From Sorangium cellulosum So0157-2 (GTDB lineage: Bacteria; Myxococcota_A; Polyangia; Polyangiales; Polyangiaceae): 64,000 nucleotides of DNA. The notes under the pieces are model-generated. The model was not told where the DNA came from. It saw only the letters and a list, made by a program, of their open reading frames with translations, and made no database searches. Position 1 is the stretch's first letter; every line of letters starts with the position of its first letter. Location: the NCBI RefSeq assembly GCF_000418325.1, contig NC_021658.1, forward strand, positions 7,454,001 through 7,518,000, given 5' to 3'. Positions 42,713 to 64,000 of this stretch are shown piece by piece. A program made the position numbers and the translations under genes.

Positions 42713-42878
42713 CAAGGGCACCGCAGCAGCATGGCGGCGCGGTGGCGCCCGAGAGCGCCCATGACACCAGCGGGCAGCGCCCTGCCGCGGCGAAACCTGC
42801 CGGCGCATGACAAAGGGCGCTGGGGCGCGCGCGGCTCTCGGAAAACCGAGTCCGTTCATGTAGGCTTGAGCGCCAGCC

Positions 42879-44363
42879 GTGACCCCCGACCGCACCGCGC
42901 AGCTCCTCGCACCGGTGGCCCAGCCCGGAGAGCTCATCGCGGCCAAGTACCGCGTCGAGCGGGTCGTGGCCATCGGCGGAATGGGCGTCGTCCTCGCGGC
43001 GCGCAACGAGGATCTCGACCAGCAGGTCGCCATCAAGATCCTGCGCCAGGACGCCCTCAGCAACCAGGAGGCGGTCGCGCGCTTCCTGCGCGAGGCGCGC
43101 ACGGCGGCCCGCCTGCAAGGCGAGCACGTCGCGCGCGTGTTCGACGTCGGCACCACGGAGAGCGGCGTGCCCTTCATGGTGATGGAGTTCCTGAGCGGGC
43201 TCGATCTCCAGCAGGTCATCGAGACCCACGGCCCGCTGTCCATCCAGGACGCCGTCGACTACGTATTGCAGGCGCTGGAGGCCGTGGCCGAGGCGCACGC
43301 GGCCGGCGTCGTGCACCGGGACATCAAGCCTTCGAATCTGTTCCTCGCCGAGCACCCGGACGGGACACGGCACATCAAGGTCCTCGATTTCGGCATCTCG
43401 AAGGGGCAAGGGCTCGACTCGCCGGCGGAGCCGGGGCTCACGTCGACGAAGCAGGTGATGGGCTCGCCCGGGTACATGTCGCCCGAGCAGATGATGGCCC
43501 CGAGGACCGTCGACGGGCGCGCCGACGTGTGGTCGTTCGGCGTGCTGCTGTACACGCTGGTGACGGGCGAGCCGCCGTTCCAGGGCGAGACGGTCGCCGC
43601 GGTGATGGCGAACATCCTCCACCAGCCGGTGCCGCGGCTGCGCGACAAGCGCAGCGACGCGCCCGCCATGCTGGAGCGGATCGTCGCGCGCTGCCTGGAG
43701 CGCGACGTGAGCGCCCGCTACGCCAACGTCGGCAAGCTCGCGCAGGCGCTCGAGCCGCTCGGGTCGAGCTTCGCGAAGCTCTCGACCTCGCGCATCCAGA
43801 GCGCGATCGGCGCGGCGTCGCCGGCCGGACAGACGCTGCTCAACTCGAGGGCGGCCGAGGACAGCGACCGGCTGTCCGGCGCGTCGTGGACGCACACGGG
43901 CTTCCGCCGCCGGTCGCGGCGCAGGCTGCTCGTGGCCGCCGGCGTGGCCGCGCTGCTCGCCAGCGCGGCCGGCGCGGGCGTGTGGCTCGTCGGGGGCGTG
44001 CGCGTGGCCCCGGAGGCGCCGAGCTCCGCCGCGGCGGGCGAGCCCGATCGGCCCGGCGGCGGCGCCCTCGTCCCCGGCACGGCGGCCGCGGCGCCGGGCG
44101 CGCCCGCGGCAGCGCCGAGCGCGCCGCCCGCGGCGAGCGCCGCGCCGCCCGCGGCGAGCGCCGCGCCGCCCGCGGCGAGCGCCGCGCCGCCCGCGGCGAG
44201 CGCCGCACCCCCGAGCCCCGCGCCGAGCGCGGCCCCCGCGGGCAGCGCTGCGACCGGCGCGCGACCGAAGGCGACCGCGTCGGGCGCGCCGCACAGGCCG
44301 GGCCCCGTGCCCCGGCCGCAGGGGCCGACAAGCGAGGACGAAATGCTGAGGAGCCGCCATTGA
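42879..44363 (+). CDS. Membrane Ser/Thr protein kinase with AAPPAAS-repeat tail
   Basis: 494 residues. Hanks-type kinase, all key residues present: Gly loop with GGMGVV (first Gly replaced by Ala), Lys53 in VAIKIL, HRDIKPSN with Asp148, DFG with Asp170, APE-region GYMSPEQ. One membrane span at about 351-372, then an extracytoplasmic tail of about 120 residues that is Ala/Pro/Ser low-complexity with three full seven-residue AAPPAAS units. GTG start at 42879. Forms a cluster with the PEGA/TPR-like and YWTD lipoprotein genes. Its last 68 codons are duplicated downstream. Confidence 0.93.
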   Translation: MTPDRTAQLLAPVAQPGELIAAKYRVERVVAIGGMGVVLAARNEDLDQQVAIKILRQDALSNQEAVARFLREARTAARLQGEHVARVFDVGTTESGVPFMVMEFLSGLDLQQVIETHGPLSIQDAVDYVLQALEAVAEAHAAGVVHRDIKPSNLFLAEHPDGTRHIKVLDFGISKGQGLDSPAEPGLTSTKQVMGSPGYMSPEQMMAPRTVDGRADVWSFGVLLYTLVTGEPPFQGETVAAVMANILHQPVPRLRDKRSDAPAMLERIVARCLERDVSARYANVGKLAQALEPLGSSFAKLSTSRIQSAIGAASPAGQTLLNSRAAEDSDRLSGASWTHTGFRRRSRRRLLVAAGVAALLASAAGAGVWLVGGVRVAPEAPSSAAAGEPDRPGGGALVPGTAAAAPGAPAAAPSAPPAASAAPPAASAAPPAASAAPPAASAAPPSPAPSAAPAGSAATGARPKATASGAPHRPGPVPRPQGPTSEDEMLRSRH

Positions 44364-50276: not shown

Positions 50277-51458
50277 ATGGACCAGATCGGCGAGTACCTC
50301 GTTCGACGCCTCGTCGGCGAGGGGGGGATGGGCAAGGTCTATGAGGGCGAAGAGCGCCTGTCGCGCCGGCGCGTCGCGCTGAAGGTGCTCCGCCCGGAGC
50401 TCGCCCGGAGCGAGCAGGGGCGGCGGCTCTTCCTGAACGAGATGCAGATCCTCGCGCACCTCGAGCACCCGAACATCGTCCGGAGCCTCGCCAGCATCGA
50501 GGCCTCCGGCGAGCTCGTGATGGTGCTCGAATACCTGGACGGCCAGACGCTGCGCTCCCTCCTCGGCGCCGCCGGCCGCCTCCCCTGGCCGGAAGCGGTG
50601 CGGATCACGGCCAGCGTGGCGAGCGCCCTCGCGGCGGCCCACGGGCAGCAGCCGCCCGTGATCCACCGCGATCTCAAGCCCGAGAACATCATGGTGCAGA
50701 AGGACGGCGCCGTGAAGGTGATGGATTTCGGCATCGCCAAGGTCGTCGAGGCGATGAACCAGACGAACACGCAGAGCGTCGGGACCCTGCAGTACATGAG
50801 CCCGGAGCAGATCGACGCGCGATCCATCGATCACCGCTCGGATCTCTACTGCCTCGGGCTCATCCTGTACGAGGCGCTCTCCGGGCGCCCGCCGTTCCAG
50901 TCGGCCTCGCCGCGGGAGCTGCTCAACCTGCAGTGCACGGCCGAGCCCCCGCCGCTCGACGACGACGTGCGGAGCGGGCTGCCCCGCGGCGTCGAGCAGC
51001 TGCTCTTCCAGCTGCTCGAGAAGGCGCCCGAGGATCGGCCGTACCTCGCGCAGGACGTCGTGGATCGGCTAGAGCCGTTCCAGACCGCCGCGGCCGCGCC
51101 GCGCGGGGCGGCGAGCGGCGAGCGCGCCGCCGGAAGCCGGGATCGGGCGAGCGCGCCGCAGCGGACCGACGACCACGGCCGCGCGAGCGCGCCGCAGCGG
51201 GCCGACGACCACGGCCGCGCGAGCGCGCCGGGAGCAGCGCGCGTCACCGGCGGAGCGGGCGCGCCGCGCGCCGACACCATCGCGCTCGTCGAGCAGATCG
51301 ACCGGAGGCGCGACGTCCCGGCCGGGATCGCGATCGCCATCATCGTGGCGCTGTCGGCGCTCGCGGGCCTCGGGACGTACGCGCTGCGCTCGACGGGCGG
51401 CGCGCCGGAGCCGCCCGCCAGCGCCGCGACGCCGGCGCCGCCTCCGGAGGCGCGGTGA
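50277..51458 (+). CDS. Membrane Ser/Thr protein kinase
   Basis: 393 residues. All catalytic motifs intact: GEGGMGKV, Lys36 in VALKVL, HRDLKPEN with Asp132, DFG Asp150, QYMSPEQ, SDLYCLG. A Ser/Arg/Asp-rich juxtamembrane segment (about 265-335) contains a duplicated APQRTDDHGRAS-like unit; one membrane span at about 345-367; a very short Pro/Ala tail outside. ATG preceded by GAGAGGAG. The stop overlaps the GTG of the next gene (GTGA), coupling it to the pseudokinase-cytochrome fusion, which it may phosphorylate or answer to. Confidence 0.94.
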   Translation: MDQIGEYLVRRLVGEGGMGKVYEGEERLSRRRVALKVLRPELARSEQGRRLFLNEMQILAHLEHPNIVRSLASIEASGELVMVLEYLDGQTLRSLLGAAGRLPWPEAVRITASVASALAAAHGQQPPVIHRDLKPENIMVQKDGAVKVMDFGIAKVVEAMNQTNTQSVGTLQYMSPEQIDARSIDHRSDLYCLGLILYEALSGRPPFQSASPRELLNLQCTAEPPPLDDDVRSGLPRGVEQLLFQLLEKAPEDRPYLAQDVVDRLEPFQTAAAAPRGAASGERAAGSRDRASAPQRTDDHGRASAPQRADDHGRASAPGAARVTGGAGAPRADTIALVEQIDRRRDVPAGIAIAIIVALSALAGLGTYALRSTGGAPEPPASAATPAPPPEAR

Positions 51459-54400
51459 GGCGCGCGTCGCCGGAGCAGGCGGGCTACGCGGAAGGCGCGC
51501 CCCTCCCGGCCGTGGGCTCCGCGGCGCGGTGGCGCTGCGGCGCGGCGGAGGAGCTGTGGCGGCTCGGCGAGGCGGACCAGGGCGGCCCGGCAGGGCCCGA
51601 GCGCGAGGCCGTCGCGGCGCGGCTCCTCGCGCTCGGCAGCGCTGGCGTCGGCGGCTTCGTCGACGGCGGCGTCGACGGGCTGGCCGAGGGCGGGCCCGCC
51701 GCGGGCCCGGGCGGCGCGCGCGTCTGGCTCGTGCGGAGGCTCGCGGGCGCCCCGCTCGCGGATCGGATGCGCGCGCGGCGCGGTCCCTTTCCGTTTCAAG
51801 AGGCGCTCCGGCTCGCCCTCCCGCTCGCCCGCGCGCTCGCCGCCTGCGAGCGGGCCAGCCTGTTCCCAGGCCCGCTCTCGCCCGACGCGGTCCTCGTCGA
51901 CGACGCAGGCCAGGTGACGCTGCCCGCGAGCGCGCTCGTCGCGGCGCTGGTCGGGGCCCCCGCGAGCGGCGGCGCCGGCGCCTCGCCCCGCGCCGCGGGC
52001 GCGCGGGTCTCGTCGGAGATCCCGCCGCTCTGGACGCCGCCGGCGCAGGCCGACGGCGCGATCTGGGACAGCGCCGCGAACCGGTACGCGCTCGGGCTCG
52101 CGCTCTACCGGCTGCTCGCGGGAGAGCACCCATTCGCGGGCGCGGGCCTGCGGCACGCGCTCGGCGAGGCCGCTCGCCGAGAGCCCCCGCCGTTCGTCGA
52201 GAGCGTCGCGACGGCGCTGCCCCCGGGCCTGCAGGGCCACGTCCTGCGGCTGCTCCATCCGGATCCGGCGCAGCGGCCGCCGCGCGCCGAGGCGATCGCG
52301 GATGCCCTGAGCGGGTTCCTCGAGGGCGATCCGCCGGCGCGGCCGGCGCAGGTCGCCCGGACCTCGCGCCGCGCCGGGGCGGCGGCGCAGACGAGCGCCG
52401 GCCCATCGCCGCAGACGAGCGCCGGCGCCGCGGCGCAGGCGAGCTCCGGCGCGCCGGCGAGCGCGCCGCGGCGCGACGCGGCCGCCCGCCGCGCGCCGCC
52501 TGGGCCCGCCAGCGCCGGGGCGCGTCTGTGGCGGCTCGCGCCGCTCGGCGCCGGCGCGCTCGTCGCGTCGGCCGCGCTCGCGATCTCGCGGGGCGCGCCC
52601 GAGCCGGCCGCGCCGCGGGCCGTCGCCGTGGCGCCGGTCGCGCCGCTCGCGCAGGCGCGGACGGCGGCGGAGGACTGCGCGGCGTGCCACGGCCGCCAGG
52701 CCTCGGAGTGGCGCCGCTCGGTGATGGCGCACTCGGTGAAGAGCCCGCTCTTCAACGCGCTCGAGAGCCTCATCGAGGAGCAGGTCGGGCGCGACGCCGA
52801 CTGCCCGAACGGCGCGGGCATCCTGCGCAAGGTCGACCCCGCGCGCGCCTGCCGCGACCGGCAGAGCGGCGTCGTCGTGACCGGCTCGGGCGGCGAGCAC
52901 TGGTGCGTGAACTGCCACAGCCCGGCCGAGAACCTCGACGCCGCCATGCCCGCGTGGGACGGCCGCCCCGGCGGCGACCCCCGCGCGCGCCTGCCGGTGC
53001 GCGACCTGCTCACCCGCCGCGGTCTCGAGGGGATCTCCTGCGGCTTCTGCCACCAGGTGCACGGCCCGGTCGGCCCGCGCGGGCGCCCCGGGTACCAGGG
53101 CAACGCGACGTGGACGTCGTTCACGACCGGCGCCGTCTTCGCGGCGCGCCCCGAGGACGCGCGCGGCCTGTTCGGGATCGCGAACAGCGGCTACGACCTC
53201 CGCCCCGAGGAGCTCTTGCTCCCCGCCGGCCAGCGCGCGGACCGCCGCGCCGGGCCCTCGCCGGCGCGGCCGCCCGTCGGCGACGACCCGGTCGTGCACG
53301 GCCGGCCGTCGGCGAGCGCCAGCGCGTACCTGCGCTCCAGCGAGTTCTGCGGGGCCTGCCACGACGTGCGCCTCTTCGGCACCGACAGCCTCGCGGCGGC
53401 GCGGGGCGAGCATTTCAAGCGGCTGCGCAACGCCTACACCGAGTGGGCGGAGTGGGCGAGATCCGAGGAGCGCGCGGGCCGCGCCGCGGCGAGCTGCCAG
53501 GACTGCCACATGAGCACCTACCCGGGCGTCTGCGAGGCGGCCCCGGCCGGCGCCGCGCAGGCGGCGGCGCCCGATCCCGAGTGCCCGCCCGGCACGCGCT
53601 TCGCCCCGCGCGCGCCGGGGGCGCGGCCGCGGGGCCGGATCGCGGATCACTCCACCGCCCCGGCGGACGTCGCGACCCACTACTTCTCTGGCGTGGATGT
53701 GCCGCTGTCGGACGAGTTCCCGGAGGCGCTCATCGACGAGCCGTCGCTCGACGCGCACGGCATCCCCACGAGCGCCCGCCGCCGCCGCGATCTGCTGCTC
53801 CGCCACACCTTCCGCTTCGCGCTCGGCGCCGCGCGGCGCGCCGGCGCGGCCGGCGGCCGCGTCGAGATCCCGATCGAGATCGAGAACGTCGGCGCCGGGC
53901 ACAAGGTGCCGGCAGGCTTCAGCCAGGAGCGCGAGATCTGGGTTCACCTCGCGGTCAGGGACGCAGATCGTCGGGTGATCTACGAGGTCGGCCGCGTCGA
54001 CCGCGCGGATGAGGACCTGAAAGACAAGGTGTTCACCCGGGTGACCACCCACCCGGACGCGAACAACCCTCTTGGGCGCCCGGGCGCCCAAGGAGGGTTG
54101 TTCGGGGCCGACGTGCGCGACGGGCCGGACGTCCCCCTCTGGGCGCCGCCTCCGCGGCTCGGCGGCACCTCGTTCCGCGGGCGAGGGCTCATCAACTTCC
54201 AGAACGGGTTTCTGCGTTGCGTCCGCTGCGTCGGTGTCGTCGCCGCGGACGGCAGCTGCCAGCCCGGGCCCGGCCAGGGGCTGCACCACGCCGACCGGTA
54301 CGCGGACGGGGACTACGATCCGGACACGGGCGCGTGCGGCTCGAACCTCGCGGGGCAGAACGCCTTTCTGGAGACCTATTTCCCCGTCGGCGCGCTCGAC

Positions 54401-54697
54401 GCGAGCCGCGGGGCCGTGAAGGGCCCGGACGCGATCATCGACACGCGCTCCGCGCCGCCCGGCGTGCCGATCCGGTACACGTACGACCTCCCGGCCGGCG
54501 CGCTCCGCGGCCCGCTCCGGGCCGAGGCGAGGCTGCTCTTCCGGGCGTTTCCCCCCTTCCTGATCCGCGCCTTCGCCGCGTACGAGCGGGAGCAGGCGCG
54601 GCGCGGCCTCAGGCCGACCGGCCCGCTGGTCACCGAGTCGATGCTCGGCCGCCTCGAGGTCGTCGAGCTCGCGCGGGCCGAGATCGAGATCCCCTGA
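51455..54697 (+). CDS. Pseudokinase fused to a five-heme cytochrome c
   Basis: 1080 residues. First about 300 residues have the outline of a Hanks kinase (VWLVRRLAGAPL strand, LARALAACERAS..PLSPDAVLV in the place of the catalytic loop, NRYALGLALYRLLAGEHPF of the F-helix, DPAQRPP of the C-lobe) but HRD, DFG and APE are all missing. After a Ser/Ala/Gln linker comes one membrane span (about 358-380), then a periplasmic cytochrome with CxxCH at C408, C484, C529, C632 and C681, plus CVRCV at 922 where His is lost. The opening DCAACHGRQASEW is like cytochrome c554-type proteins. Start GTG 51455 overlaps the kinase stop. The fusion of a dead kinase with a multihaem domain is, to my knowledge, not a described architecture. 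Confidence 0.88.
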   Translation: MRRASPEQAGYAEGAPLPAVGSAARWRCGAAEELWRLGEADQGGPAGPEREAVAARLLALGSAGVGGFVDGGVDGLAEGGPAAGPGGARVWLVRRLAGAPLADRMRARRGPFPFQEALRLALPLARALAACERASLFPGPLSPDAVLVDDAGQVTLPASALVAALVGAPASGGAGASPRAAGARVSSEIPPLWTPPAQADGAIWDSAANRYALGLALYRLLAGEHPFAGAGLRHALGEAARREPPPFVESVATALPPGLQGHVLRLLHPDPAQRPPRAEAIADALSGFLEGDPPARPAQVARTSRRAGAAAQTSAGPSPQTSAGAAAQASSGAPASAPRRDAAARRAPPGPASAGARLWRLAPLGAGALVASAALAISRGAPEPAAPRAVAVAPVAPLAQARTAAEDCAACHGRQASEWRRSVMAHSVKSPLFNALESLIEEQVGRDADCPNGAGILRKVDPARACRDRQSGVVVTGSGGEHWCVNCHSPAENLDAAMPAWDGRPGGDPRARLPVRDLLTRRGLEGISCGFCHQVHGPVGPRGRPGYQGNATWTSFTTGAVFAARPEDARGLFGIANSGYDLRPEELLLPAGQRADRRAGPSPARPPVGDDPVVHGRPSASASAYLRSSEFCGACHDVRLFGTDSLAAARGEHFKRLRNAYTEWAEWARSEERAGRAAASCQDCHMSTYPGVCEAAPAGAAQAAAPDPECPPGTRFAPRAPGARPRGRIADHSTAPADVATHYFSGVDVPLSDEFPEALIDEPSLDAHGIPTSARRRRDLLLRHTFRFALGAARRAGAAGGRVEIPIEIENVGAGHKVPAGFSQEREIWVHLAVRDADRRVIYEVGRVDRADEDLKDKVFTRVTTHPDANNPLGRPGAQGGLFGADVRDGPDVPLWAPPPRLGGTSFRGRGLINFQNGFLRCVRCVGVVAADGSCQPGPGQGLHHADRYADGDYDPDTGACGSNLAGQNAFLETYFPVGALDASRGAVKGPDAIIDTRSAPPGVPIRYTYDLPAGALRGPLRAEARLLFRAFPPFLIRAFAAYEREQARRGLRPTGPLVTESMLGRLEVVELARAEIEIP

Positions 54698-54856
54698 GCC
54701 GAGGCGACCGCGATGGAGCCACCCGCGCCGCAGTCCTCTCGCCGCGCCGGCGCACAAAAAGGGGCGAGCCCTCACCCCGGCACGCGGGGTAAGGGCTTCG
54801 CTGGTCAAGAGCTGAAAGGCTCAGCTCGCGGTGATCGTGAAGCGCGGCCCCGGCGA

Positions 54857-55711
54857 TCAGGGAGGGGGCGGCGGCTCGTCCTCGACCGGGTCCACGGGCA
54901 GCTTGAACAGCCGGCCGATCCGGTAGGGCCGCGTCGAGGGGGAGTAGTAGCTCGTCATCGACGGCGTGACGCTCCACGTGTAGCCGAGCAGGTGGTTCGT
55001 GATCGCGTCGGTGTACACGCGCATGGTGCCCGTCCCGGCCCCCGCCGCCATGTAGCCGCCGGTGCACTCCCCTTGCCACCGGCTGTCCGCGTACTCGCTG
55101 CCCGCGTCGAAGCACCCGTGCGGCGAGCTTGTCGAGTCCACGATCGGAACGGCGTACTGCCTCGTCCCGGAGTAGCGCGGCATGACCGGGCTGATCTCCT
55201 TGGCCGGGCCCGTGATGATGACCGTGTGACCGGCATAGGTGGCCGTGGCGTCGATGACGAGGACATCGCCCTTCTGGATGTCGATCGCCCTGTTGATGCG
55301 GCGGAAGTAGGTCTCGGGCTCCCGCTCGAGCCCGCCGTACACCGGGCTGTCGTTGATGATATCGTAGAGCTCGGCGGACGAGGGGCGAGACTTCACCCAC
55401 AGGTACCTGATGTCGTCATCCGAGTAGCCCATCGACTTCTTCAGCGACAGCACGAAGAAGCACGCGCCCTTGGTCCTGCCGGTCCAGGGGCTGATCTCGA
55501 CGTCCTCGCCATCGATCTTGATGACCTCGGGGTCATCCCAGGTCATGTAGCACTTCTCGTCCCCGACGGTCGCGTCGTTGGTGACGGCGTTGTCGATGAA
55601 ATCGAGGGCCCAGTCCGTGTGGTCCTTGGCGCTCGCGGGCGCCGAGCCCAGCATAACGAAGGACGCGGCAACCAGCGATGCAACAGCCAAACTCGTCGTG
55701 CGCCTGCTCAT
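54857..55711 (-). CDS. Secreted protein, possible NlpC/CHAP-like cysteine hydrolase
   Basis: 284 residues. ATG at 55711 after GAGGTAG; cleavable Sec signal peptide ending APASA. A central GACFFVLSLKKSMGY (Cys at a helix start), GDVLVID and AGHTVIITG order of Cys...Asp...His is like papain-fold NlpC/P60 or CHAP peptidases, but no family match is sure. Two other cysteine pairs may form disulfides; C-terminal Pro-rich end. Codons and leader are less GC-rich than around. Faces the CNB-ferredoxin gene across a promoter region. Confidence 0.6.
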   Translation of the reverse strand: MSRRTTSLAVASLVAASFVMLGSAPASAKDHTDWALDFIDNAVTNDATVGDEKCYMTWDDPEVIKIDGEDVEISPWTGRTKGACFFVLSLKKSMGYSDDDIRYLWVKSRPSSAELYDIINDSPVYGGLEREPETYFRRINRAIDIQKGDVLVIDATATYAGHTVIITGPAKEISPVMPRYSGTRQYAVPIVDSTSSPHGCFDAGSEYADSRWQGECTGGYMAAGAGTGTMRVYTDAITNHLLGYTWSVTPSMTSYYSPSTRPYRIGRLFKLPVDPVEDEPPPPP

Positions 55712-55829
55712 ACTTCTACCTCGTTGATGTGAATGACCTTGCATGTGCACTCTGGAACAGATGCTAGTCATTTCATGCTGAACCATCAAAGCAACCCTGG
55801 CGCCGAACATGCCGAGTCTAGCAGGATGG

Positions 55830-55858
55830 ATATTCTCTATGATCGGCTTAGGTGTCAA
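55830..55858 (-). promoter_or_regulatory. Sigma70-type promoter for the secreted protein
   Basis: On the minus strand TTGACA (55853-55858), 17-bp spacer, GAATAT (55830-55835). Predicted start about 55823, leader about 110 nt. Confidence 0.5.
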
Positions 55859-55894
55859 GGCTTTTTCGGGTCGCTCTTCCTTTTTTTGCAGTTT

Positions 55895-55908
55895 TTCGAG
55901 CGCTCGAA
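55895..55908. promoter_or_regulatory. 14-bp perfect palindrome TTCGAGCGCTCGAA
   Basis: Lies between two divergent starts (55711 and 56021), flanked on the left by a T-run. Suited to a dimeric regulator; no other copy noticed in this window. Might alternatively be a terminator-like stem. Confidence 0.45.
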
Positions 55909-56020
55909 CGTGGAGTAAGACCATGTCGTCCCTTACGACAGCTGATGCGCGATGGTATGGAGCGAATCGCGCGCCAGGAGCCGCATTTCCGGCTGTGCTC
56001 GGCGACCGGGAGCCCTGCTG

Positions 56021-58396
56021 ATGCCCTCATCGGACCACACCTACATCGATGCGCGCGATGCGGCGCCCGGCGGCCCCGACGCCTGGCCGCCGGCGGTGTT
56101 CGACGCCCCCTTGCTGCGAGGGCTCGACGAGCGCGCGCGGCGCGAGATCGCCGAGGCAGGGCGGCTCCGCACCCCCTCGACCGACGAGGTCGTCTATCGC
56201 GCCGGCGACGCCGGCGACGCGCTCTTCGTCGTCGCTTCCGGGCGCATCGCGCTGCGCGCGACACGCCGCGGAGACGATCGCGATACGGAGGTGCGCACCG
56301 CCGCTGTGGGCGATGTCCTCGGCGAGGAGGCGGTCGTGGGCATGTCGCGCAGGACCACCGCGATCGCCCTCGCACCCAGCGTCCTCGCGGAGATCCCCGT
56401 CCACCTGTTCCGGCGCGCCGCCGGCCGCTCCGGCAAGGCCGAGATCGCCGAAAAGCTCGATCGCGCGCTGCGGAGGAGCGCCACGCGCGACCTCCTCGGC
56501 ACCCTCGCCTTCACCCGCGACCTCGATCCGGAAGACATCGACATGCTCCTTGACGCGGTGAGTCATCGCCGCTTCGAGCGCGGTCAGGCCATCTATCGCG
56601 ACGGGGATCCCGCGACCGAGCTGTGGCTCATCGCCGACGGGATGGTGCAAATCCAGACCGAGGAGGGAGATCGGATTCATGTGCGGGCGTACCTCACCCG
56701 GGGCGATTTCTTCGGGGACGTCGAGCTCGACGAGGGTCGCCGCCGGACGGCGAGCGCCGTGGCCAGCGGCGCGGCGACGCTCCTGTCGGTACCGTCGAAG
56801 ACGTTCGCCGGCCTGGCGCGGAAGCACCCTGATCTGATCCCGCGACTCCGGCGCATCACCGGCGACCAGCGCGCCGCCCAGGGAGCGATCGTCGCCGGCC
56901 AGGCGCGCAACCACACTGCACATCTCTTCCGGGACCTCTATCGCCTTCAGGTGGCGCGGTCGCTCCTGGTCATCGATCTCGATACGTGCGCTCGCTGCGG
57001 ACACTGCGCGTGGTCGTGCGCCGACGTACACGGGATCTCGCGACTCGTCCGCCGCGGCGACAAAATACGCGCCCGGGTGGACGACGACGCGGCCGACACG
57101 CCGGCCGACGCGCCCGCGGAAGCGCCGCGGAGCCTGCTCCTGCCGAACTCCTGTCAACATTGCGAGAGCCCCGCCTGCATGATCGAGTGTCCGACCGGCG
57201 CCATCGGCAAGGACACAGGAGGCGAGGTGTTCATCCGCGACGCGCTCTGCACCGGCTGCGGCGCCTGCGCCAAGGCGTGCCCGTGGGAGAACATCGCGAT
57301 CGCGCCGCGCCCCCCCGCCGCGCAGCGCCCGGGCGGCGCGGGCTTCGCGGACATCGCGGTGAAATGCGATCTCTGCCGCGAGCACGACGGCCCCGCGTGC
57401 GTGAAGGCCTGCCCCACGGGCTCGATCTTCCGCGTGAACCCGGCGGAGGAGATCGCCGACGTGCGCGATCTGCTCGGCGGGGCGCGGCGCGAGCAGGAGC
57501 GCTCCGCAGGGCAGCGGGGCGGCGCGGCGCTCCTCGCCGGGAGCGCGATCGCGGCGGCGGGGCTCGGCGCGGCGGGGCTGTCGGCGCACGCGCGCGGCGG
57601 GGCGCGGCCGGGCGACGGCGCCGCGCTCGGGGCGGGCGTCGCCGCGGCCGTGGGGGTCGCGCTGCTCCTCGGGTACGCCGTCCCGAAGCGCGCCGGGCGG
57701 CGGCTGTGGATGCGGCCCAGGCGGCGCGGCGCGGCGGACGCGGCCGGCGAGGCGGACGACGCCGCGCCGATCCGGAGCCGGCTGCGCCCGCAGCTCTCCG
57801 CGCACCTCGCGATCGGCCTCGTCACCGCCGGCCTCGCGCTCGCGCACGCGCCGTGGCCGCGGTCCGGCCGCCCGACGCTCGGCGCGGCGCTCCACCTCGC
57901 GTTCTGGGCGACCGCGGCGGCCGGCGCCTTCACGGCGCTCGCGTACCGGCTCGCGCCGCGGCGCCTCGCCCGGATCGAGCGCACCGCCGCGCTCCCCGAG
58001 GACTTCGCCGCCGCCCGCCGCGAGCTCCTCGACCGCTTCTACCGCGAGGTGAGCGGGCGCAGCGATCTGGTCAAGAAGATCGTCGAGAAGGTCCTCGTGC
58101 CCTACCTGAAGAGCCCCCTCGGCCCGCTCGCGCTCCTCGCCTCGGGGCGCGGGCTGCGCGAGGAGGAGCGCGCGCTGCGCGCCCGCATCGACGCCGTCCT
58201 CGAAGGCCGCGGCAGCGAGCGGCTGGCCGGCCTCTCGGAGCTCCTCCGCATCGCCGTGGAGCTGCGCGCGCTCCCGGCCCAGCGCGCGCTCCTCGCCGCG
58301 CTCCGCGGCGGGCTGCCGGCGCACATCATCACGTTCGGCGTCGCCGCCGCGCTGCTCGTGCTCCACGCGATCACGGCGGCGAGCGTGCCCCGATGA
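56021..58396 (+). CDS. Two cNMP-binding domains fused to a four-cluster ferredoxin and membrane domain
   Basis: 791 residues. CRP-type domains at about 25-135 and 165-280 (the second has GDFFGDVELDEGRRRTAS, near the canonical cassette; the first is weaker). Then a polyferredoxin like the electron-transfer subunit of molybdo-oxidoreductases: CARCGHCAWSC (323-333), CQHCESPACMIECP (378-390), CTGCGACAKACP (410-420), CDLC...CVKACP (449-464), in all sixteen cysteines for four [4Fe-4S]. About five membrane spans follow (501-520, 533-553, 590-607, 618-637, 770-787) with His residues that could bind haem b. No catalytic molybdo-subunit is nearby. ATG 56021 preceded by GGGAG. A nucleotide-gated electron conduit is the best guess. 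Confidence 0.9.
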   Translation: MPSSDHTYIDARDAAPGGPDAWPPAVFDAPLLRGLDERARREIAEAGRLRTPSTDEVVYRAGDAGDALFVVASGRIALRATRRGDDRDTEVRTAAVGDVLGEEAVVGMSRRTTAIALAPSVLAEIPVHLFRRAAGRSGKAEIAEKLDRALRRSATRDLLGTLAFTRDLDPEDIDMLLDAVSHRRFERGQAIYRDGDPATELWLIADGMVQIQTEEGDRIHVRAYLTRGDFFGDVELDEGRRRTASAVASGAATLLSVPSKTFAGLARKHPDLIPRLRRITGDQRAAQGAIVAGQARNHTAHLFRDLYRLQVARSLLVIDLDTCARCGHCAWSCADVHGISRLVRRGDKIRARVDDDAADTPADAPAEAPRSLLLPNSCQHCESPACMIECPTGAIGKDTGGEVFIRDALCTGCGACAKACPWENIAIAPRPPAAQRPGGAGFADIAVKCDLCREHDGPACVKACPTGSIFRVNPAEEIADVRDLLGGARREQERSAGQRGGAALLAGSAIAAAGLGAAGLSAHARGGARPGDGAALGAGVAAAVGVALLLGYAVPKRAGRRLWMRPRRRGAADAAGEADDAAPIRSRLRPQLSAHLAIGLVTAGLALAHAPWPRSGRPTLGAALHLAFWATAAAGAFTALAYRLAPRRLARIERTAALPEDFAAARRELLDRFYREVSGRSDLVKKIVEKVLVPYLKSPLGPLALLASGRGLREEERALRARIDAVLEGRGSERLAGLSELLRIAVELRALPAQRALLAALRGGLPAHIITFGVAAALLVLHAITAASVPR

Positions 58397-58622: not shown

Positions 58623-61526
58623 ATGGCTGGTCCCTCGACCAAGTGGATGCGAGCGCTCTCCCGAGCAGGCTTCGCCGAGGCGTGGGCGCCGAGAGCGCTG
58701 CTGCTCGTCACGTTGTCCTCGGCGGCGGCGGTGATCGCCGGGGCGTGCAGCGGAGACGACAGCGGCCCTCCGGGGCCGCAGGGCGGGACGGGCTGGCCCG
58801 ACGCGGGGGCGGAGGCGGGCGACCCGTGCGTCGATGGCGAAGAGGTGGAGTGTCACATCACCGTCGGCGAGAACGCGGGCGTGCTGACCTGCATGGACGG
58901 CATCCGCCGGTGCCAGGACGGGCGCTACGGCAGCTGCGAGGGGACGATGACGATGCGGAGGTCGCCGTTCGGGCCTTCGCCCGGCGGGGACGGCGAGAGC
59001 GGGTATCCGCGCCCGCTCGCCAACTCCGAGGCTTCGGACGGGGGTCTCTGCGCGACGAACCCGTGCGATCCGTCGTGCCAGTCGTTCGAGGAGACGCCGG
59101 ACGGGGGGCCCATCGATCTCTCGGGGACCGGCATCACGTACACGTGGTCGGTCGGGGACATCAACGAGCTGCCCGAGTCCGTCGCGCGGCAGGGCACGCA
59201 CCAGCCCTGCACGACCAGCGAGGATTGCCAGTTCGACCAGTACTGCGAGCACCCCGCGCAGAGCGCGTGCGCCCACAGCCCGTGCGACACCGGCGGCCCC
59301 CTGCTGACGACCTGCAGCGGCTGCATCGCGAAGGTCTGCGACGCTCGGCCGAGCTGCTGCTACCAGCCGACGATACCGGCCGACTGTGGACATGACGCCT
59401 GCCAGACCGGCACGGCGACCAACATGACCACGACCTGCGGCGACCCGTGCATCGAAGCCATCTGCGCGACCGACCCGCTCTGCTGCGAGATCCACCCCAC
59501 GAGCTCGGCGGAGTGCGCGACGCTCATCGGAGCAGGCAGCACCTTGTTGCTCGGCGGCAGGTGCCGTGTGCCTACCTCCGGTATCTGCCCCCCGCCGACC
59601 CAGCCCATCGACGGCGCGTGCGTGCCGAATTGGACCGCCTACTGCAGGGACCGCGTCGCGACCCGGTGCGCCCCCAAGACGTGCACCCCGCCGACCAATA
59701 CGTGGGACGCGACGTGCGTCGCCCTGGCCGAGCAGGAGTGCGGCGCCGCGTGCGGCACCGAGCCAGGCGTGCAACAGGGCCTCTGCAAATCCTACCTGCC
59801 GAACCAGACGAACCCCGCGTGCGGCGGCGTGGATCTCACGGTCGGCGTGCCCTGCGACGGGACGATCCCGGTCTGCAACCGCGGCACCATGCCGGCGCCC
59901 GCGAACATCGAGATTCACCGCTATCCCGCGGGCGCGGGCCAGCTCCCCTCCTCGGCGCCGGGCCGCATCCTGAACTCCTGCAGCCCGACCGGCGGGACCC
60001 TCGCCTGCACGACCGCGCAGCCGATCGCCCCGGGCGAGTGCATCAGCGTGGCCGGCTGCACGGGCCTCGCCAACGGCATGGAGCTCATCGTCAACCCGCC
60101 GGGCCCGGAGCAGATCGCCGAGTGCCAGTGCGGCAACAACGGGAGCATCTATCATCCGTTGGCCATGTGCGAGTCGCCGGGCTGCATCGCCACGGCCAGC
60201 GTCTCGATGATCAGGCCGGCCACCCTGTTCGTGACGCTCGATCGGTCCGCCTCCATGACGGCGAACTCGGCGAGCACCTCGCGATGGAACCCGGCGCGCG
60301 CCGCCCTCAGGGCGTTCTTCGAGGATCAGGCGTCGGCGGGGCTCGGCGTCGCGCTCCGGTTCTGGCCGCACGACAACCCCGGCCCGTGCAACGACTCCGC
60401 CGGCACCTGCCCGGGCTACGCTGTCGCCGGGTGCTCCCTGGCGATCGTCCCCTTCGATGGCTCGACGGCCCGGAGGCTGACCGCGGACGCCGCGCCGACG
60501 GATCAGCAGGAGCTCGCGCTCGTCAACGCGCTCTACCCCGGCCCCGGCACCAACGGCGATACCCCCATGTACCCGGCGCTGGACGGCGCCACGACCTGGG
60601 CGATCAACTACAAGAACATGCACCCCGAGGAGGAGGTCGCGGTCGTGCTCGTGACCGACGGCATCCCGTCGAACTGCGACACCGTCCCGAACCACATCGG
60701 GGAGGTGGCGCGCAATGCCTACGAGAACCACGGCATTCGCGTGCACGCGGTCGGCTTCGGCAACTCGAGCACGGAGATCATCAACCTCATCGCGACGCGC
60801 GGCGGCGGGCGGGCGTTCAACCTCACCGCCGGCGCGGGGCTGGAGACGACCCTCCGCGACGCGCTCGTCGCGATCCGCGGCCAGGCGCTCCCCTGCGACG
60901 TGACGGTCCCCCTCGCCGGCGCGTCGGATCCCGCCTCGGTGTCGGTCGTCCACGTGAACAGCGCCGGCACCGAGACCGTGCTCACGCCCCGGGCCGACCT
61001 CGCCAGCTGCGGCCAGGGCTGGTACTTCACCGACGCGACGAACACGAGCGTCAAGCTCTGCCCGCAGACGTGCACGGCGCTCCGCGACACCCCGGGGAAG
61101 GTCCGCGCCACCGTCCCGTGCGTGACCACGACGCTCACGCCCATGACCACGAGCTGGGAGCGCTACCGCGGCGTCTGCCCGCCGGGGACCAAGACCCAGT
61201 GGGGGTTCCTCCGGTACAGGACGGCGACGCCGGGCGACTCGAGCGTCGAGTTCTTCGTGCGCGCGGCCGACGACCCCGCCGAGCTCGCCGGGGCCACGGT
61301 GCGGCTCGCCGCCACCGCCCACGCGGTGCCCACCGACACCCGGATCTGCGATGAGGACTCGACGCCGCCGTGCGCGATCAACCTCTTCGACGTGCTGCAA
61401 GAGCTGCCGGACGCCCGGACCGAGTACCTCGAGATCCAGATGAGGCTCAACCCGACGAGCACGGGCGGCGGCGGTGTTCAGGTGCAGGACTGGGAGATCA
61501 CGTATTCATGTCCGGATTCCGAATGA
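58623..61526 (+). CDS. VWA-domain Cys-rich lipoprotein
   Basis: 967 residues. Signal peptide with Cys in AGAC. First about 530 residues are Cys-rich (over 60 cysteines in CC and C-x(2-9)-C spacing) with small repeated modules (CIAKVCDARPSCC, CIEAICATDPLCC; CRDRVATRCAPKTC). Then a von Willebrand factor A domain (about 540-760) with intact MIDAS LDRSASM, DGDTPM and VLVTDGIPS. The C-terminus is beta-rich. A calcium- or magnesium-dependent adhesin or sensor on the surface is likely. ATGA overlap with the next gene. ATG 58623 after AGAAGGTAG. Confidence 0.88.
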   Translation: MAGPSTKWMRALSRAGFAEAWAPRALLLVTLSSAAAVIAGACSGDDSGPPGPQGGTGWPDAGAEAGDPCVDGEEVECHITVGENAGVLTCMDGIRRCQDGRYGSCEGTMTMRRSPFGPSPGGDGESGYPRPLANSEASDGGLCATNPCDPSCQSFEETPDGGPIDLSGTGITYTWSVGDINELPESVARQGTHQPCTTSEDCQFDQYCEHPAQSACAHSPCDTGGPLLTTCSGCIAKVCDARPSCCYQPTIPADCGHDACQTGTATNMTTTCGDPCIEAICATDPLCCEIHPTSSAECATLIGAGSTLLLGGRCRVPTSGICPPPTQPIDGACVPNWTAYCRDRVATRCAPKTCTPPTNTWDATCVALAEQECGAACGTEPGVQQGLCKSYLPNQTNPACGGVDLTVGVPCDGTIPVCNRGTMPAPANIEIHRYPAGAGQLPSSAPGRILNSCSPTGGTLACTTAQPIAPGECISVAGCTGLANGMELIVNPPGPEQIAECQCGNNGSIYHPLAMCESPGCIATASVSMIRPATLFVTLDRSASMTANSASTSRWNPARAALRAFFEDQASAGLGVALRFWPHDNPGPCNDSAGTCPGYAVAGCSLAIVPFDGSTARRLTADAAPTDQQELALVNALYPGPGTNGDTPMYPALDGATTWAINYKNMHPEEEVAVVLVTDGIPSNCDTVPNHIGEVARNAYENHGIRVHAVGFGNSSTEIINLIATRGGGRAFNLTAGAGLETTLRDALVAIRGQALPCDVTVPLAGASDPASVSVVHVNSAGTETVLTPRADLASCGQGWYFTDATNTSVKLCPQTCTALRDTPGKVRATVPCVTTTLTPMTTSWERYRGVCPPGTKTQWGFLRYRTATPGDSSVEFFVRAADDPAELAGATVRLAATAHAVPTDTRICDEDSTPPCAINLFDVLQELPDARTEYLEIQMRLNPTSTGGGGVQVQDWEITYSCPDSE

Positions 61527-63223
61527 GCCGCCGCATCGCGACGATCGCCCTGCTCTCCGCCGCGGCCCTCGCCGCGGCGTGCGGCGCAGACGACGACAAC
61601 CGGCCGAGGCCTCCGTCTCCCTCCGGCGGCGCCGGGGCCGCCGGAGGTGCGGGCGGCAGCGGCGGCGGCGACGGCGGCCGGGGCGGCGGCGCCTGCGGCG
61701 ACGGCGTCGCCGCGCCGGACGAGGCGTGCGACGGGGCCGATCTCGGGGGCGCCACGTGCGAGAGCCTCGGCTTCGACGGCGGCGAGCTCCGGTGCAGCCC
61801 CGAGTGCACCGCCGACACGTCGGGCTGCACGGGCGTGGAGGTGTGCCAGGACGGCCGCGACAACGACGGCGACGGCAGCGCCGACTGCGCCGACCCGGAG
61901 TGCGAGGCGGCGTGCGCGGACCTGTGCGCCGCCCCGGTGGCGCTCTCGGATCCCGCGCTCGTCACCGGCGACACGAGCGGCCACGCGGCGGTCGAGGGCG
62001 GGTGCGCGGCGGGGGCCCCGGGCGTCGCCTACACGTTCACCGCGACCGCCACCGGGTTCCTCGACGTGGTGCTGACCTCGGAGACCGACGCCGCGCTCAT
62101 GGCGGTGCTGCGCGGCGACTGCGCCAGCGCCGGGACGCAGCTCGCGTGCGGCGTCGCCAGCGCCGGCGCGGGCATCGAGAACCGCCTCACCATCCCGGTC
62201 AGCGAGGGCGACGCGTTCCACGTGATCGTCACGAGCGCGAGCGCGGACCAGGCGGGCGCGTTCGAGCTCGCCGTGAGGAGCCGCGTGCCCGCCTGCGGCG
62301 ACCGCATCCAGGATCCGGACGAGGCGTGCGACGACGGCAACGACGAGCCGGGCGACGGGTGCAGCGACGAATGCCGGCTCGAGGCGACCGAGGTCGAGCC
62401 GAACGGCACCATCGCCACGGCCAACCCCTACGAAGACCCGTTCTTCGCCAGCATCGATCCGCCCGGCGACGAGGACGTCGTGCGCGTCACCGTGCCGACC
62501 GGGCCCACGGCGCTCGTCGTGGAGACCGGCGATATCACGAGCTCCGACTGCCTCGAGGGCCGGCTCGACACCATCGTCGAGATCCTGGACGAGAGCGGCG
62601 CGCTGATCGTGCGGCGCGACTCCGGGGGGGTCGGCCACTGCGCCCGAGCCGTCGCGCCGGCGCTCCCGGCGGGCGACTACTACGTCCGCGTCACGGCGCG
62701 CGTCGGCCCCGAGCAGCGGGCTCCGTACGGGCTCCTCGTGACGCTCGTCCCCGAGGTCTGCGGGGACGGGGACACGACCGCCGGCGAGCAGTGCGACGAC
62801 GGCAACACGACCGCCGGCGACGGGTGCAGCGCCGCCTGCCGCTTCGAGCTCCACGAGGCGGAGCCGAACGACGCGCCGGCGCAGGCAAACGCCCACGCCG
62901 CGCCGTGGCTCGCGGAGATCTCGCCGGCAGGCGACGTCGACGTGGTCGCCGTGAACGTGCCCGGGCCGAGCTCGACCTTGATCGCGACCGTCAGCGACAA
63001 CGGCACCGAGGCGTGCGCGACGAACCGGCTCGACAGCTTCGTCGAGATCCTCGGCGGCGGCGGGGCCGACGTGCTCGCCTCGGACGACGACTCGGGGGCC
63101 GGCTACTGCTCCTCCGCGTCGGTCACCGACCTGCCCGCGGGCACCTACCACGTGCGGGTCAGGGCGGCGGACCTCGTCCCCGACGCGACCTTCTTCTATC
63201 GACTGAATGTCACGATCCTCTAG
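61523..63223 (+). CDS. Lipoprotein with DUF4215-type Cys repeats and PPC-like domains
   Basis: 566 residues. ATG overlaps the upstream stop (ATGA); another in-frame ATG at 61508 would add five residues. Signal peptide with lipobox AAAC, Gly-rich linker. Two clear 'myxococcus Cys-rich' units: CGDRIQDPDEACDDGN...DGCSDEC and CGDGDTTAGEQCDDGN...DGCSAAC, plus an earlier related CGDG...DEACDG. They alternate with beta-sandwich domains (AEVEPNGTIATANPY, ...GDVDVVAVNV, LPAGTYHVRV) of pre-peptidase C-terminal type. Likely surface protein made with the VWA partner. Confidence 0.88.
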   Translation: MSRRIATIALLSAAALAAACGADDDNRPRPPSPSGGAGAAGGAGGSGGGDGGRGGGACGDGVAAPDEACDGADLGGATCESLGFDGGELRCSPECTADTSGCTGVEVCQDGRDNDGDGSADCADPECEAACADLCAAPVALSDPALVTGDTSGHAAVEGGCAAGAPGVAYTFTATATGFLDVVLTSETDAALMAVLRGDCASAGTQLACGVASAGAGIENRLTIPVSEGDAFHVIVTSASADQAGAFELAVRSRVPACGDRIQDPDEACDDGNDEPGDGCSDECRLEATEVEPNGTIATANPYEDPFFASIDPPGDEDVVRVTVPTGPTALVVETGDITSSDCLEGRLDTIVEILDESGALIVRRDSGGVGHCARAVAPALPAGDYYVRVTARVGPEQRAPYGLLVTLVPEVCGDGDTTAGEQCDDGNTTAGDGCSAACRFELHEAEPNDAPAQANAHAAPWLAEISPAGDVDVVAVNVPGPSSTLIATVSDNGTEACATNRLDSFVEILGGGGADVLASDDDSGAGYCSSASVTDLPAGTYHVRVRAADLVPDATFFYRLNVTIL

Positions 63224-64000
63224 CCCGACCGGCGGGCGGAGCCGGACGGAGGCCCCGTCCGGTGACGCCGCGGGGGAGGGCCCGTCCGGCGGCGCCGCGG
63301 GGGAGGCCCCCTCCGGCGGCGCAGCGGGAGAGGCGGCGCGGTCGCCCGACCCATCGAGGACGCTCTACCGCGCCGACCTGTCCGATCCGCGCCAGCGCGC
63401 CGCCCAGCCGCGCGAGATCGTGCGCGGTCGCGCCGCGCGCCGCGCCGAGTCGACGTCCGACGTCACCCGCTTCCGGGGCGTGCTGCCGGCCGCGCTGGCG
63501 GGCGCCGTCGCGACCGGCGCGGCGGCGCTGCTCTTCCCGCCGCCCGGGGGGCACGCGGCGCCGGGGCCGCTCTCGCTGCCCCACGCGCGCGCGCAGCTCT
63601 CGTGCGCGTCGTGCCACGCCGAGGAGGCGACCGCGGGGCCGCGGGGGGCTGCGGAAGCCGCGCCGCGCGGGTCCGCGGCGGGCGCGCGCCTGGACCGGGC
63701 CTGCGCCGGGTGCCACGGCGACCACGGGTCCACCCGCGCGCGCCACGGGCAGCTGCTCGCGAGCGGCGCGATGAGCTGCGCCACGTGCCACCCCATCCAC
63801 CGCGGCGACCAGGGCGTCGTGTTCGACCCCGCGGGTCCGCCGGTGCGCTTCGCGCCGGGCGCCGAGGTCGAGCTCCCGAGGGCGGCCTTCCGCCCGAGCC
63901 AGCCGGCCACGGTCGCGATCGTCACCGCAGGGAGCTGCGCGCCGTGCCACGACCTCCGCGCGCCGCGCGACCCGATCGCGCGCTGCCTGGTCGAGGCGCA
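63207..64000 (+). CDS. Multiheme cytochrome c, 3' end outside the window
   Basis: Open frame of 264 codons without a stop, cut by the right edge. ATG at 63207 overlaps the previous gene by 17 bp; no strong ribosome site, so the start is tentative. First about 90 residues are Ser/Gly/Ala-rich and basic, then a membrane span (about 93-110, VLPAALAGAVATGAAALLF), then four haem sites in view: CASCH (133), CAGCH (166), CATCH (191), CAPCH (244). Membrane-anchored periplasmic cytochrome. Third multihaem gene in the window, and 4.8 kb from the CNB-ferredoxin gene that would need such a partner. Confidence 0.85.
   Translation, partial: MSRSSSPTGGRSRTEAPSGDAAGEGPSGGAAGEAPSGGAAGEAARSPDPSRTLYRADLSDPRQRAAQPREIVRGRAARRAESTSDVTRFRGVLPAALAGAVATGAAALLFPPPGGHAAPGPLSLPHARAQLSCASCHAEEATAGPRGAAEAAPRGSAAGARLDRACAGCHGDHGSTRARHGQLLASGAMSCATCHPIHRGDQGVVFDPAGPPVRFAPGAEVELPRAAFRPSQPATVAIVTAGSCAPCHDLRAPRDPIARCLVEA

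Follow-up and report, generated by a model that had tools for sequence, protein, structure and literature searches.

A pseudokinase fused to a predicted pentahaem cytochrome and encoded next to a Ser/Thr kinase in Sorangium cellulosum and other myxobacteria

What bacterial Ser/Thr kinases sense is, to our knowledge, mostly unknown, and pentahaem TorC, which acts on the histidine kinase TorS, is a loose precedent for the locus described here. Among the closest described systems, MviN of Mycobacterium tuberculosis (ActPs3, mainly actinobacterial) has a membrane-bound pseudokinase that serves as a PknB substrate and forms back-to-back dimers of a kind known from some kinases, and it regulates peptidoglycan synthesis via FhaA; EssB/YukC of Firmicutes is a membrane-anchored pseudokinase with degraded motifs that serves the type VII secretion apparatus. 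Both are treated in a 2025 review of bacterial pseudokinase families (PMC12599244); in the sections drawn on here, neither is given a haem part, and no neighbouring kinase is mentioned for EssB/YukC. Periplasmic covalent haem with a transmembrane tie to a signalling part is known from the c-type haem sensors Geobacter GSU0582 and GSU0935, DcrA and Tll0287/DUF3365, which in the excerpts used are PAS/Cache folds on chemoreceptors or two-component proteins (PMC8396549, PMC12889525). Here we describe a protein (P2) that joins a Ser/Thr pseudokinase head to a predicted periplasmic pentahaem domain. It is encoded in a 64,000-nucleotide stretch of Sorangium cellulosum So0157-2 (assembly GCF_000418325.1, contig NC_021658.1, positions 7,454,001 to 7,518,000, forward strand); the whole of this stretch is called the window, and the conserved neighbours of P2 are called P1, P3 and P4.

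Two features that the review, in the sections drawn on here, uses as criteria for MviN/ActPs3 are found in P2, namely degradation of all motifs of the head and a membrane region C-terminal to it (PMC12599244); a link to a PknB-type kinase is shared as well. With EssB/YukC, P2 has in common the degraded motifs, the membrane anchor (predicted in P2) and a putative role in a membrane machine. With the c-type haem sensors it would share periplasmic covalent haem and a transmembrane tie to a signalling part; unlike them, it has five haem motifs, a different fold and a Ser/Thr pseudokinase. The initial annotation of this DNA knew of no described system with this make-up, and literature searches on pseudokinases, multihaem cytochromes, myxobacterial kinases and c-type haem sensors found no description of such a protein either; in the part of the 2025 review available here no word starts with 'cytochrome', 'heme' or 'myxo' (PMC12599244). 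The parts are known; their combination is undescribed, and its function is putative. The features are as follows.

50277–51458, + strand: P1, active-type PknB-like Ser/Thr kinase (Pfam Pkinase, 1e-55)
51446–51450, + strand: GGAGG, Shine–Dalgarno-like, 4 bases 5' of the P2 GTG (from the sequence)
51455–54697, + strand: P2, pseudokinase–membrane helix–pentahaem cytochrome fusion, 1080 aa (single reading frame in 29/35 loci)
51455–52333, + strand: P2 pseudokinase head, residues 1–293 (AlphaFold2, Foldseek, hhalign)
52535–52591, + strand: P2 predicted membrane helix, residues 361–379 (hydropathy scan; segment in 34 aligned rows)
52640–54694, + strand: P2 predicted periplasmic pentahaem domain, residues 396–1080 (alignment of 33 rows, model, Foldseek match to 5ze8)
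52676–52690, + strand: P2 CxxCH 1, residue 408
52904–52918, + strand: P2 CxxCH 2, residue 484
53039–53053, + strand: P2 CxxCH 3, residue 529
53348–53362, + strand: P2 CxxCH 4, residue 632
53495–53509, + strand: P2 CxxCH 5, residue 681

Relatives were collected by scanning genome_contigs (84,980 species genomes) with the cytochrome half (residues 399–1080), which gave 59 pattern matches and 35 loci encoding this half (numbered with the prefix L). The open reading frame (ORF) of P2 was checked for coordinates, frame and length, and is open over 1080 codons. Its GTG at 51455 overlaps the TGA of the kinase gene in a shared GTGA, as the initial annotation had reported together with the five CxxCH motifs, all of which were found; Met in the same alignment column in six relatives supports this start. 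G+C content at third codon positions is 0.954 in P2, 0.947 in P1 and 0.814 in the opposite-strand ORF 50846–54808. When residues 376–1080 were shuffled 10,000 times, CxxCH occurred 0.01 times on average and at most once, against five in the real protein; an additional CxxC, without His, lies at residue 922. The kinase-like stretch and the five CxxCH motifs form one ORF in 29 of the 35 loci, so a frameshift join of two genes, which the initial annotation had named as a possible source of error, is excluded, as is a spurious ORF.

The sequence likeness of the head to kinases is distant: phmmer aligned it with PknA (4e-9, residues 86–348), the NCBIfam models of the MAD6 kinase (7e-13) and PknB (1.5e-10) matched far below their curated cut-offs, and a Pfam scan of P2 at E 0.05 listed no kinase model. 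An AlphaFold2 model of residues 1–299 (predicted local distance difference test score, pLDDT, 88.6; predicted template modelling score, pTM, 0.88) was compared by using Foldseek, and every one of the best 50 matches listed was a protein kinase, with M. tuberculosis PknB and PknA at the top (best E 1.9e-12). The kinase-shaped N-terminus that had been read from the letters is thus borne out by structure prediction, and the head is, in the model, a remodelled kinase fold. The profile comparison agrees: a profile of 29 heads (window and 28 of the 35 loci) was aligned by hhalign with a profile of 26 neighbouring kinases (window and 25 loci) at probability 99.8 and E 1.2e-28 over kinase residues 77–268. 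The head profile leaves out L001, L013, L023 and L032 (without N-terminus), L002 (domain absent), L018 (cut) and L030 (frame-broken); the kinase profile leaves out the L014 copy, which is cut by the contig end.

In these 29 head rows the HRD position reads P-G-P, with His replaced by Pro in 26, Arg replaced by Gly in 27 and Asp in none, so that a new conserved motif, P-G-P/x-L, occupies the site. DFG is lost in all rows, and no head Lys aligns with VALK in any (29/29; the N-lobe alignment is poor). At the SPE position Pro is retained in 29/29 rows and Glu in 18/29; late in the domain an Arg-Pro pair is kept (Arg in 29/29 and Pro in 28/29 rows). The catalytic residues, that is the Lys and the Asp of HRD and of DFG, are absent, and the head is therefore a pseudokinase. 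The initial annotation had HRD, DFG and APE as lost; this holds for the first two throughout and for APE in the window copy, which reads PPA, and not for the APE Glu of the 18 rows that keep it. The ratio of non-synonymous to synonymous substitution rates (dN/dS) was obtained for seven pairs, at least five of them among the same four close Polyangium genomes and hence not independent: it was 0.07–0.35 for the head, 0.03–0.12 for the kinase, 0.08–0.32 for the cytochrome and 0.18–1.24 for the linker, the head lying below the linker in each pair. The head is under purifying selection. Fold, profile comparison and selection rule out a kinase likeness from composition alone. An anti-phage kinase was also considered, as MAD6, PglW and PD-T4-6 models match the kinase-like parts, and was rejected: the NCBIfam scores lie far below the cut-offs, which reflects generic kinase likeness, and PADLOC called no anti-phage system.

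When 150 of 727 first-look candidates in the window's genome were scored with the head profile, P1 ranked highest after P2 itself (315 bits on self, 117.8 on P1 and 92.3 on the next, among 149 matches listed). By this ranking the head may have arisen by degeneration of a copy of P1. A local duplication is not taken as settled: the score ranking is what speaks for it. In a tree of 81 rows the heads stand together, the neighbouring kinases stand together (85/80) and 22 other kinases split off (100/97); the row OTH_L036_1545 among the heads is the window's own pseudokinase, a duplicate read from L036.

Between head and cytochrome, hydropathy points to one modestly hydrophobic helix (Kyte–Doolittle mean 1.47 in the window and 1.21–2.56 over 34 rows). 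Lys and Arg are in excess before the helix relative to after it in 26 of the 34 rows, with six ties and two reversals, so the predicted topology places the head inside and the haems outside, with the single helix between them. All five CxxCH motifs are invariant in the 33 rows of the cytochrome alignment (window and 32 loci; L028, a near-copy of L007, the frame-broken L030 and the cut L032 were dropped). Identity to the window ranges from 54 to 90 % across the 32 aligned loci and is highest in three Sorangium cellulosum loci (90, 85 and 85 %). Five His stand out (numbering of the first row): 220, 347 and 421 do not vary, and 31 and 258 hardly do, a pattern that would be compatible with five bis-His haems.

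Pfam listed two haem models on P2, both below their cut-offs, and searches of the Protein Data Bank (PDB) by sequence and profile found no significant relative of the pentahaem domain (best E 1 and 0.11). The model of this domain (pLDDT 74.7, pTM 0.83) is weak in several stretches; its sole significant PDB match by Foldseek was 5ze8, cytochrome c552 of Thermochromatium tepidum, which is pentahaem by its entry title (E 1.4e-7, template modelling (TM) scores 0.33/0.52, root-mean-square deviation (rmsd) 11.5, with a model weak in places). Unlike P2, 5ze8 has 385 residues and no kinase part, and the structural match is weak and without counterpart in sequence profiles. No PAS or Cache chain was among the best 50 Foldseek matches listed for the haem-domain model.

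By name, the 35 loci belong to Sorangium, Minicystis, Byssovorax, Polyangium, Labilithrix, Enhygromyxa, Plesiocystis and Paraliomyxa, and to metagenome bins labelled Polyangia, Polyangiaceae, Nannocystaceae, Myxococcales, delta/Deltaproteobacteria, proteobacterium or bacterium. In the NCBI taxonomy Sorangium, Labilithrix, Enhygromyxa and Plesiocystis are placed in Polyangia and Paraliomyxa in Myxococcia, incertae sedis. The pseudokinase is present in 30 of the 31 loci with enough upstream DNA (counting L018, where it is partial, and L030, where the frame is broken); these span two orders, and the exception is L002. The possibility that homologues always occur as separate proteins, on which the annotation would have failed, thus did not materialise. 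In a second survey, which overlaps the first so that the counts are not summed, the cytochrome profile matched 59 of 377 Myxococcota genomes at 1e-10. Near-full-length or long matches (E <1e-170) account for 23 of these, all in the class of the window (14, 7 and 2 genomes of three families), and the other 36 are weak and partial. Two of the 23 are cut before the head, and 20 of the remaining 21 carry it, the exception being genome G120. The fusion is conserved in many myxobacteria and is no chimera. Plasmid-borne relatives and PHROGs gave no match. The distant solo cytochromes L075, L076 and L078 were also considered as a guide to function and were set aside, as the five neighbouring ORFs scanned (NadA, amine oxidase, class IV aminotransferase, mechanosensitive channel and CDGSH/Fer4) have no common theme.

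P1 has intact Lys, HRD, DFG and SPE motifs, so that the intact kinase of the initial annotation stands. A hydropathy scan predicts one C-terminal membrane helix with a 28-aa tail, and a helix of this kind, with a tail of 2–37 aa, occurs in each of the 26 complete copies (that of L005 has an extra weak hydrophobic segment within the kinase domain). With tails this short, P1 would sit at the membrane without an outer sensor. P1 adjoins P2 in 26 of 27 testable loci, a deeply conserved pairing, on the same strand in 23 and divergently in three (L021 and L033 of Enhygromyxa and L027 of Plesiocystis). To the question whether the kinase gene always precedes the fusion the answer is therefore mixed: adjacency is the rule, and the gene is divergent in these three loci and absent from one (L016). 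The genome of the window, whose contig has 14,782,125 bases, holds 154 matches to the kinase family, and a further intact Ser/Thr kinase gene at 42870–44363 of the window, about 93 % identical in L002 and L003, lies outside the conserved set.

The P1–P2 pair belongs to a larger conserved redox gene set, which the initial annotation had not seen. Its further members in the window are the following.

55952–58396, + strand: P3, two cyclic nucleotide (cNMP) domains, four [4Fe-4S] motifs and a membrane part (Pfam cNMP_binding, 9e-33; 4Fe-4S models)
63207–64000, + strand: first part of P4, haem domain of a tetrahaem–[4Fe-4S]–flavoprotein (relatives in 27 loci; the gene leaves the window)

P3, for which the true start may be a later Met at 56021, accompanies the fusion in 32 of 34 testable loci, all but L004 and L018. 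The 16 Cys of its four [4Fe-4S] motifs are conserved in 29–30 of 30 rows, and its membrane part keeps two His pairs (618/632 and 791/805, 14 apart in each) in 29 of 30 rows, a possible di-haem b module. DsrO (1e-20) and NrfC (7.5e-16), iron-sulfur subunits of membrane redox complexes that have a four-[4Fe-4S] ferredoxin-type region as P3 does, were matched in NCBIfam far below the curated cut-offs; unlike them, P3 has two cNMP domains and a membrane part of its own with the two His pairs. The spacing between P2 and P3 is at most 36 bases or a small overlap in most loci, and 1.2–1.4 kb in Sorangium and L027; in the window this gap (54698–55951, 1.25 kb) has ORFs on both strands that match L001–L003 at 50–56 %.

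P4 is found in 27 of 29 loci with at least 4 kb downstream (in L027 the match is partial and lies at the contig end). The two exceptions are L001, without P4 in 9.1 kb downstream, where Sorangium genes intervene, and L004, where none was found on the same strand and an opposite-strand match lies at the locus edge. Its four CxxCH and two [4Fe-4S] motifs keep all Cys in 23–24 of 24 rows, and domain scans of three relatives (L005, L009 and L011) gave a flavoprotein of the TrxR/YpdA type (Pyr_redox_3, 1e-29 to 6e-28). Judged by their motifs, P3 and P4 together would lead electrons from NAD(P)H by way of flavin and iron-sulfur clusters, perhaps also b haems, to the periplasmic c haems. P4 is split in the window's genome into the haem part (63207–64000) and an iron-sulfur/flavoprotein part (L074:1208–3662) in different frames, which may be a sequencing error or a real break; relatives have a single ORF. 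Between P3 and P4 the window has genes at 58623–61526 (weak VWA match) and 61370–63223 (Cys-rich protein), with relatives only in L001–L003, all Sorangium, among the 35 loci, and two divergent members have a VWA-domain gene downstream of P4 (L081:15548–17107 and L082:16041–17513).

The reading that we favour, tentatively and at less than an even chance, is that P1 and P2 form a split receptor on a transmembrane redox complex, which would be built from the four genes P1, P2, P3 and P4, with P2 as its regulatory membrane-spanning subunit and signalling from outside to inside. It is suggested by the linkage of a sensorless kinase to a pseudokinase with a large periplasmic redox domain; a precedent is the MviN pseudokinase, with its phosphorylation by PknB and its back-to-back dimers (PMC12599244). 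P4 and P3 would form the electron route that links NAD(P)H in the cytoplasm with the haems of the periplasm, and P2, if its pentahaem domain is loaded with haem, would exchange electrons with both. The head, perhaps derived from P1, would pair with this membrane-anchored kinase, and a change in redox state or ligand at the periplasmic haems would alter this pairing and thereby set phosphorylation inside. The direction from outside to inside is the least certain step, and the opposite one, in which the kinase gates electron flow, has almost the same likelihood. Both directions, and a pseudokinase acting as allosteric partner of the kinase, had been proposed in the initial annotation, which is partly supported: its fold, anchor, haem motifs and pairing hold, and the allosteric and redox-sensing roles are putative. 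Somewhat less probable is a kinase–pseudokinase pair in a respiratory-type complex, where the dead kinase, tied covalently to a periplasmic multihaem wire, would report outside redox state or acceptor supply to P1 and the cNMP domains would add a second-messenger input.

Several observations weigh against the split receptor. The Foldseek matches of the head have TM scores of only about 0.55 and an rmsd of 7–11; the head is looser than P1 (mean column identity 43 % against 77 %); and its origin is not settled by the tree, which is unrooted, with three groups and long branches. The haem domain of P2 could be a plain electron carrier. So ceGT47 (L002:9806–12112) lacks the pseudokinase cleanly, with kinase, start overlap, helix and cytochrome retained: behind an intact kinase, about 19 residues lead from the overlapping GTG start directly to the helix. 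In G120 (L079:9022–12263) an intact kinase is likewise followed by a cytochrome without head, which begins at an ATGA overlap with a lipobox-like, lipoprotein-type signal. L016 has the fusion and no kinase in the 4.7 kb before it. As kinase and cytochrome are kept and the head is absent in So ceGT47 and G120, P1 would be independent of the head there; with the head lost twice beside an intact kinase, and the kinase absent at L016, an obligate kinase–pseudokinase pair is ruled out.

The kinase persists in the genomes without the head, so P1 may act on the redox complex itself. P1 would then phosphorylate cytoplasmic parts of that complex, such as P3, P4 and the head or linker of P2, and gate electron flow from within, together with cyclic nucleotides on P3, and the head would be a docking platform. 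The two cNMP domains of P3 would be a second regulatory input to the complex, a long low-complexity linker precedes the P2 helix, and MviN is described, in the sections drawn on here, as a docking platform for FhaA (PMC12599244). We regard this control from inside as somewhat less likely than the split receptor; against it, FHA domains had no match in the four conserved proteins (P4 scanned as its three relatives), and a sensorless kinase would need some other input. Less probable again is a structural role, in which the head assembles or anchors the redox complex without signalling and the kinase regulates something else. The head is conserved, yet looser than the kinase; G120 has a lipoprotein-like start in its place and So ceGT47 does without it, the other parts being retained; and a precedent in the same sections is EssB/YukC, a membrane pseudokinase by which a secretion apparatus is built (PMC12599244). 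Against this, a scaffold has no need to be, among the matches listed, the one in the genome that resembles P1 most, or to remain beside P1 in 26 of 27 loci. That the head is a decaying kinase duplicate moved into a cytochrome gene and now only a membrane anchor is very improbable: the two natural losses and a dN/dS of up to 0.35 (window–L003 pair) would fit, but the head is kept in 30 of 31 testable loci of two orders, dN/dS is well under 1 in all seven pairs, a new motif is conserved at the HRD site and the predicted fold is confident.

The conserved association of P1 with a partner gene for a predicted periplasmic redox domain, within a defined gene set, makes the input of this kinase directly testable, and the two natural losses of the pseudokinase are ready comparison strains. 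P2 would be a bacterial pseudokinase whose outer domain bears a cofactor, and the literature searched yielded no published example of one. The kinase–pseudokinase pair in a respiratory-type complex, if true, would add a class of redox receptors unlike the haem sensors on histidine kinases and chemoreceptors. The locus points to a coupling, so far undescribed, of phosphorylation signalling with transmembrane electron flow.

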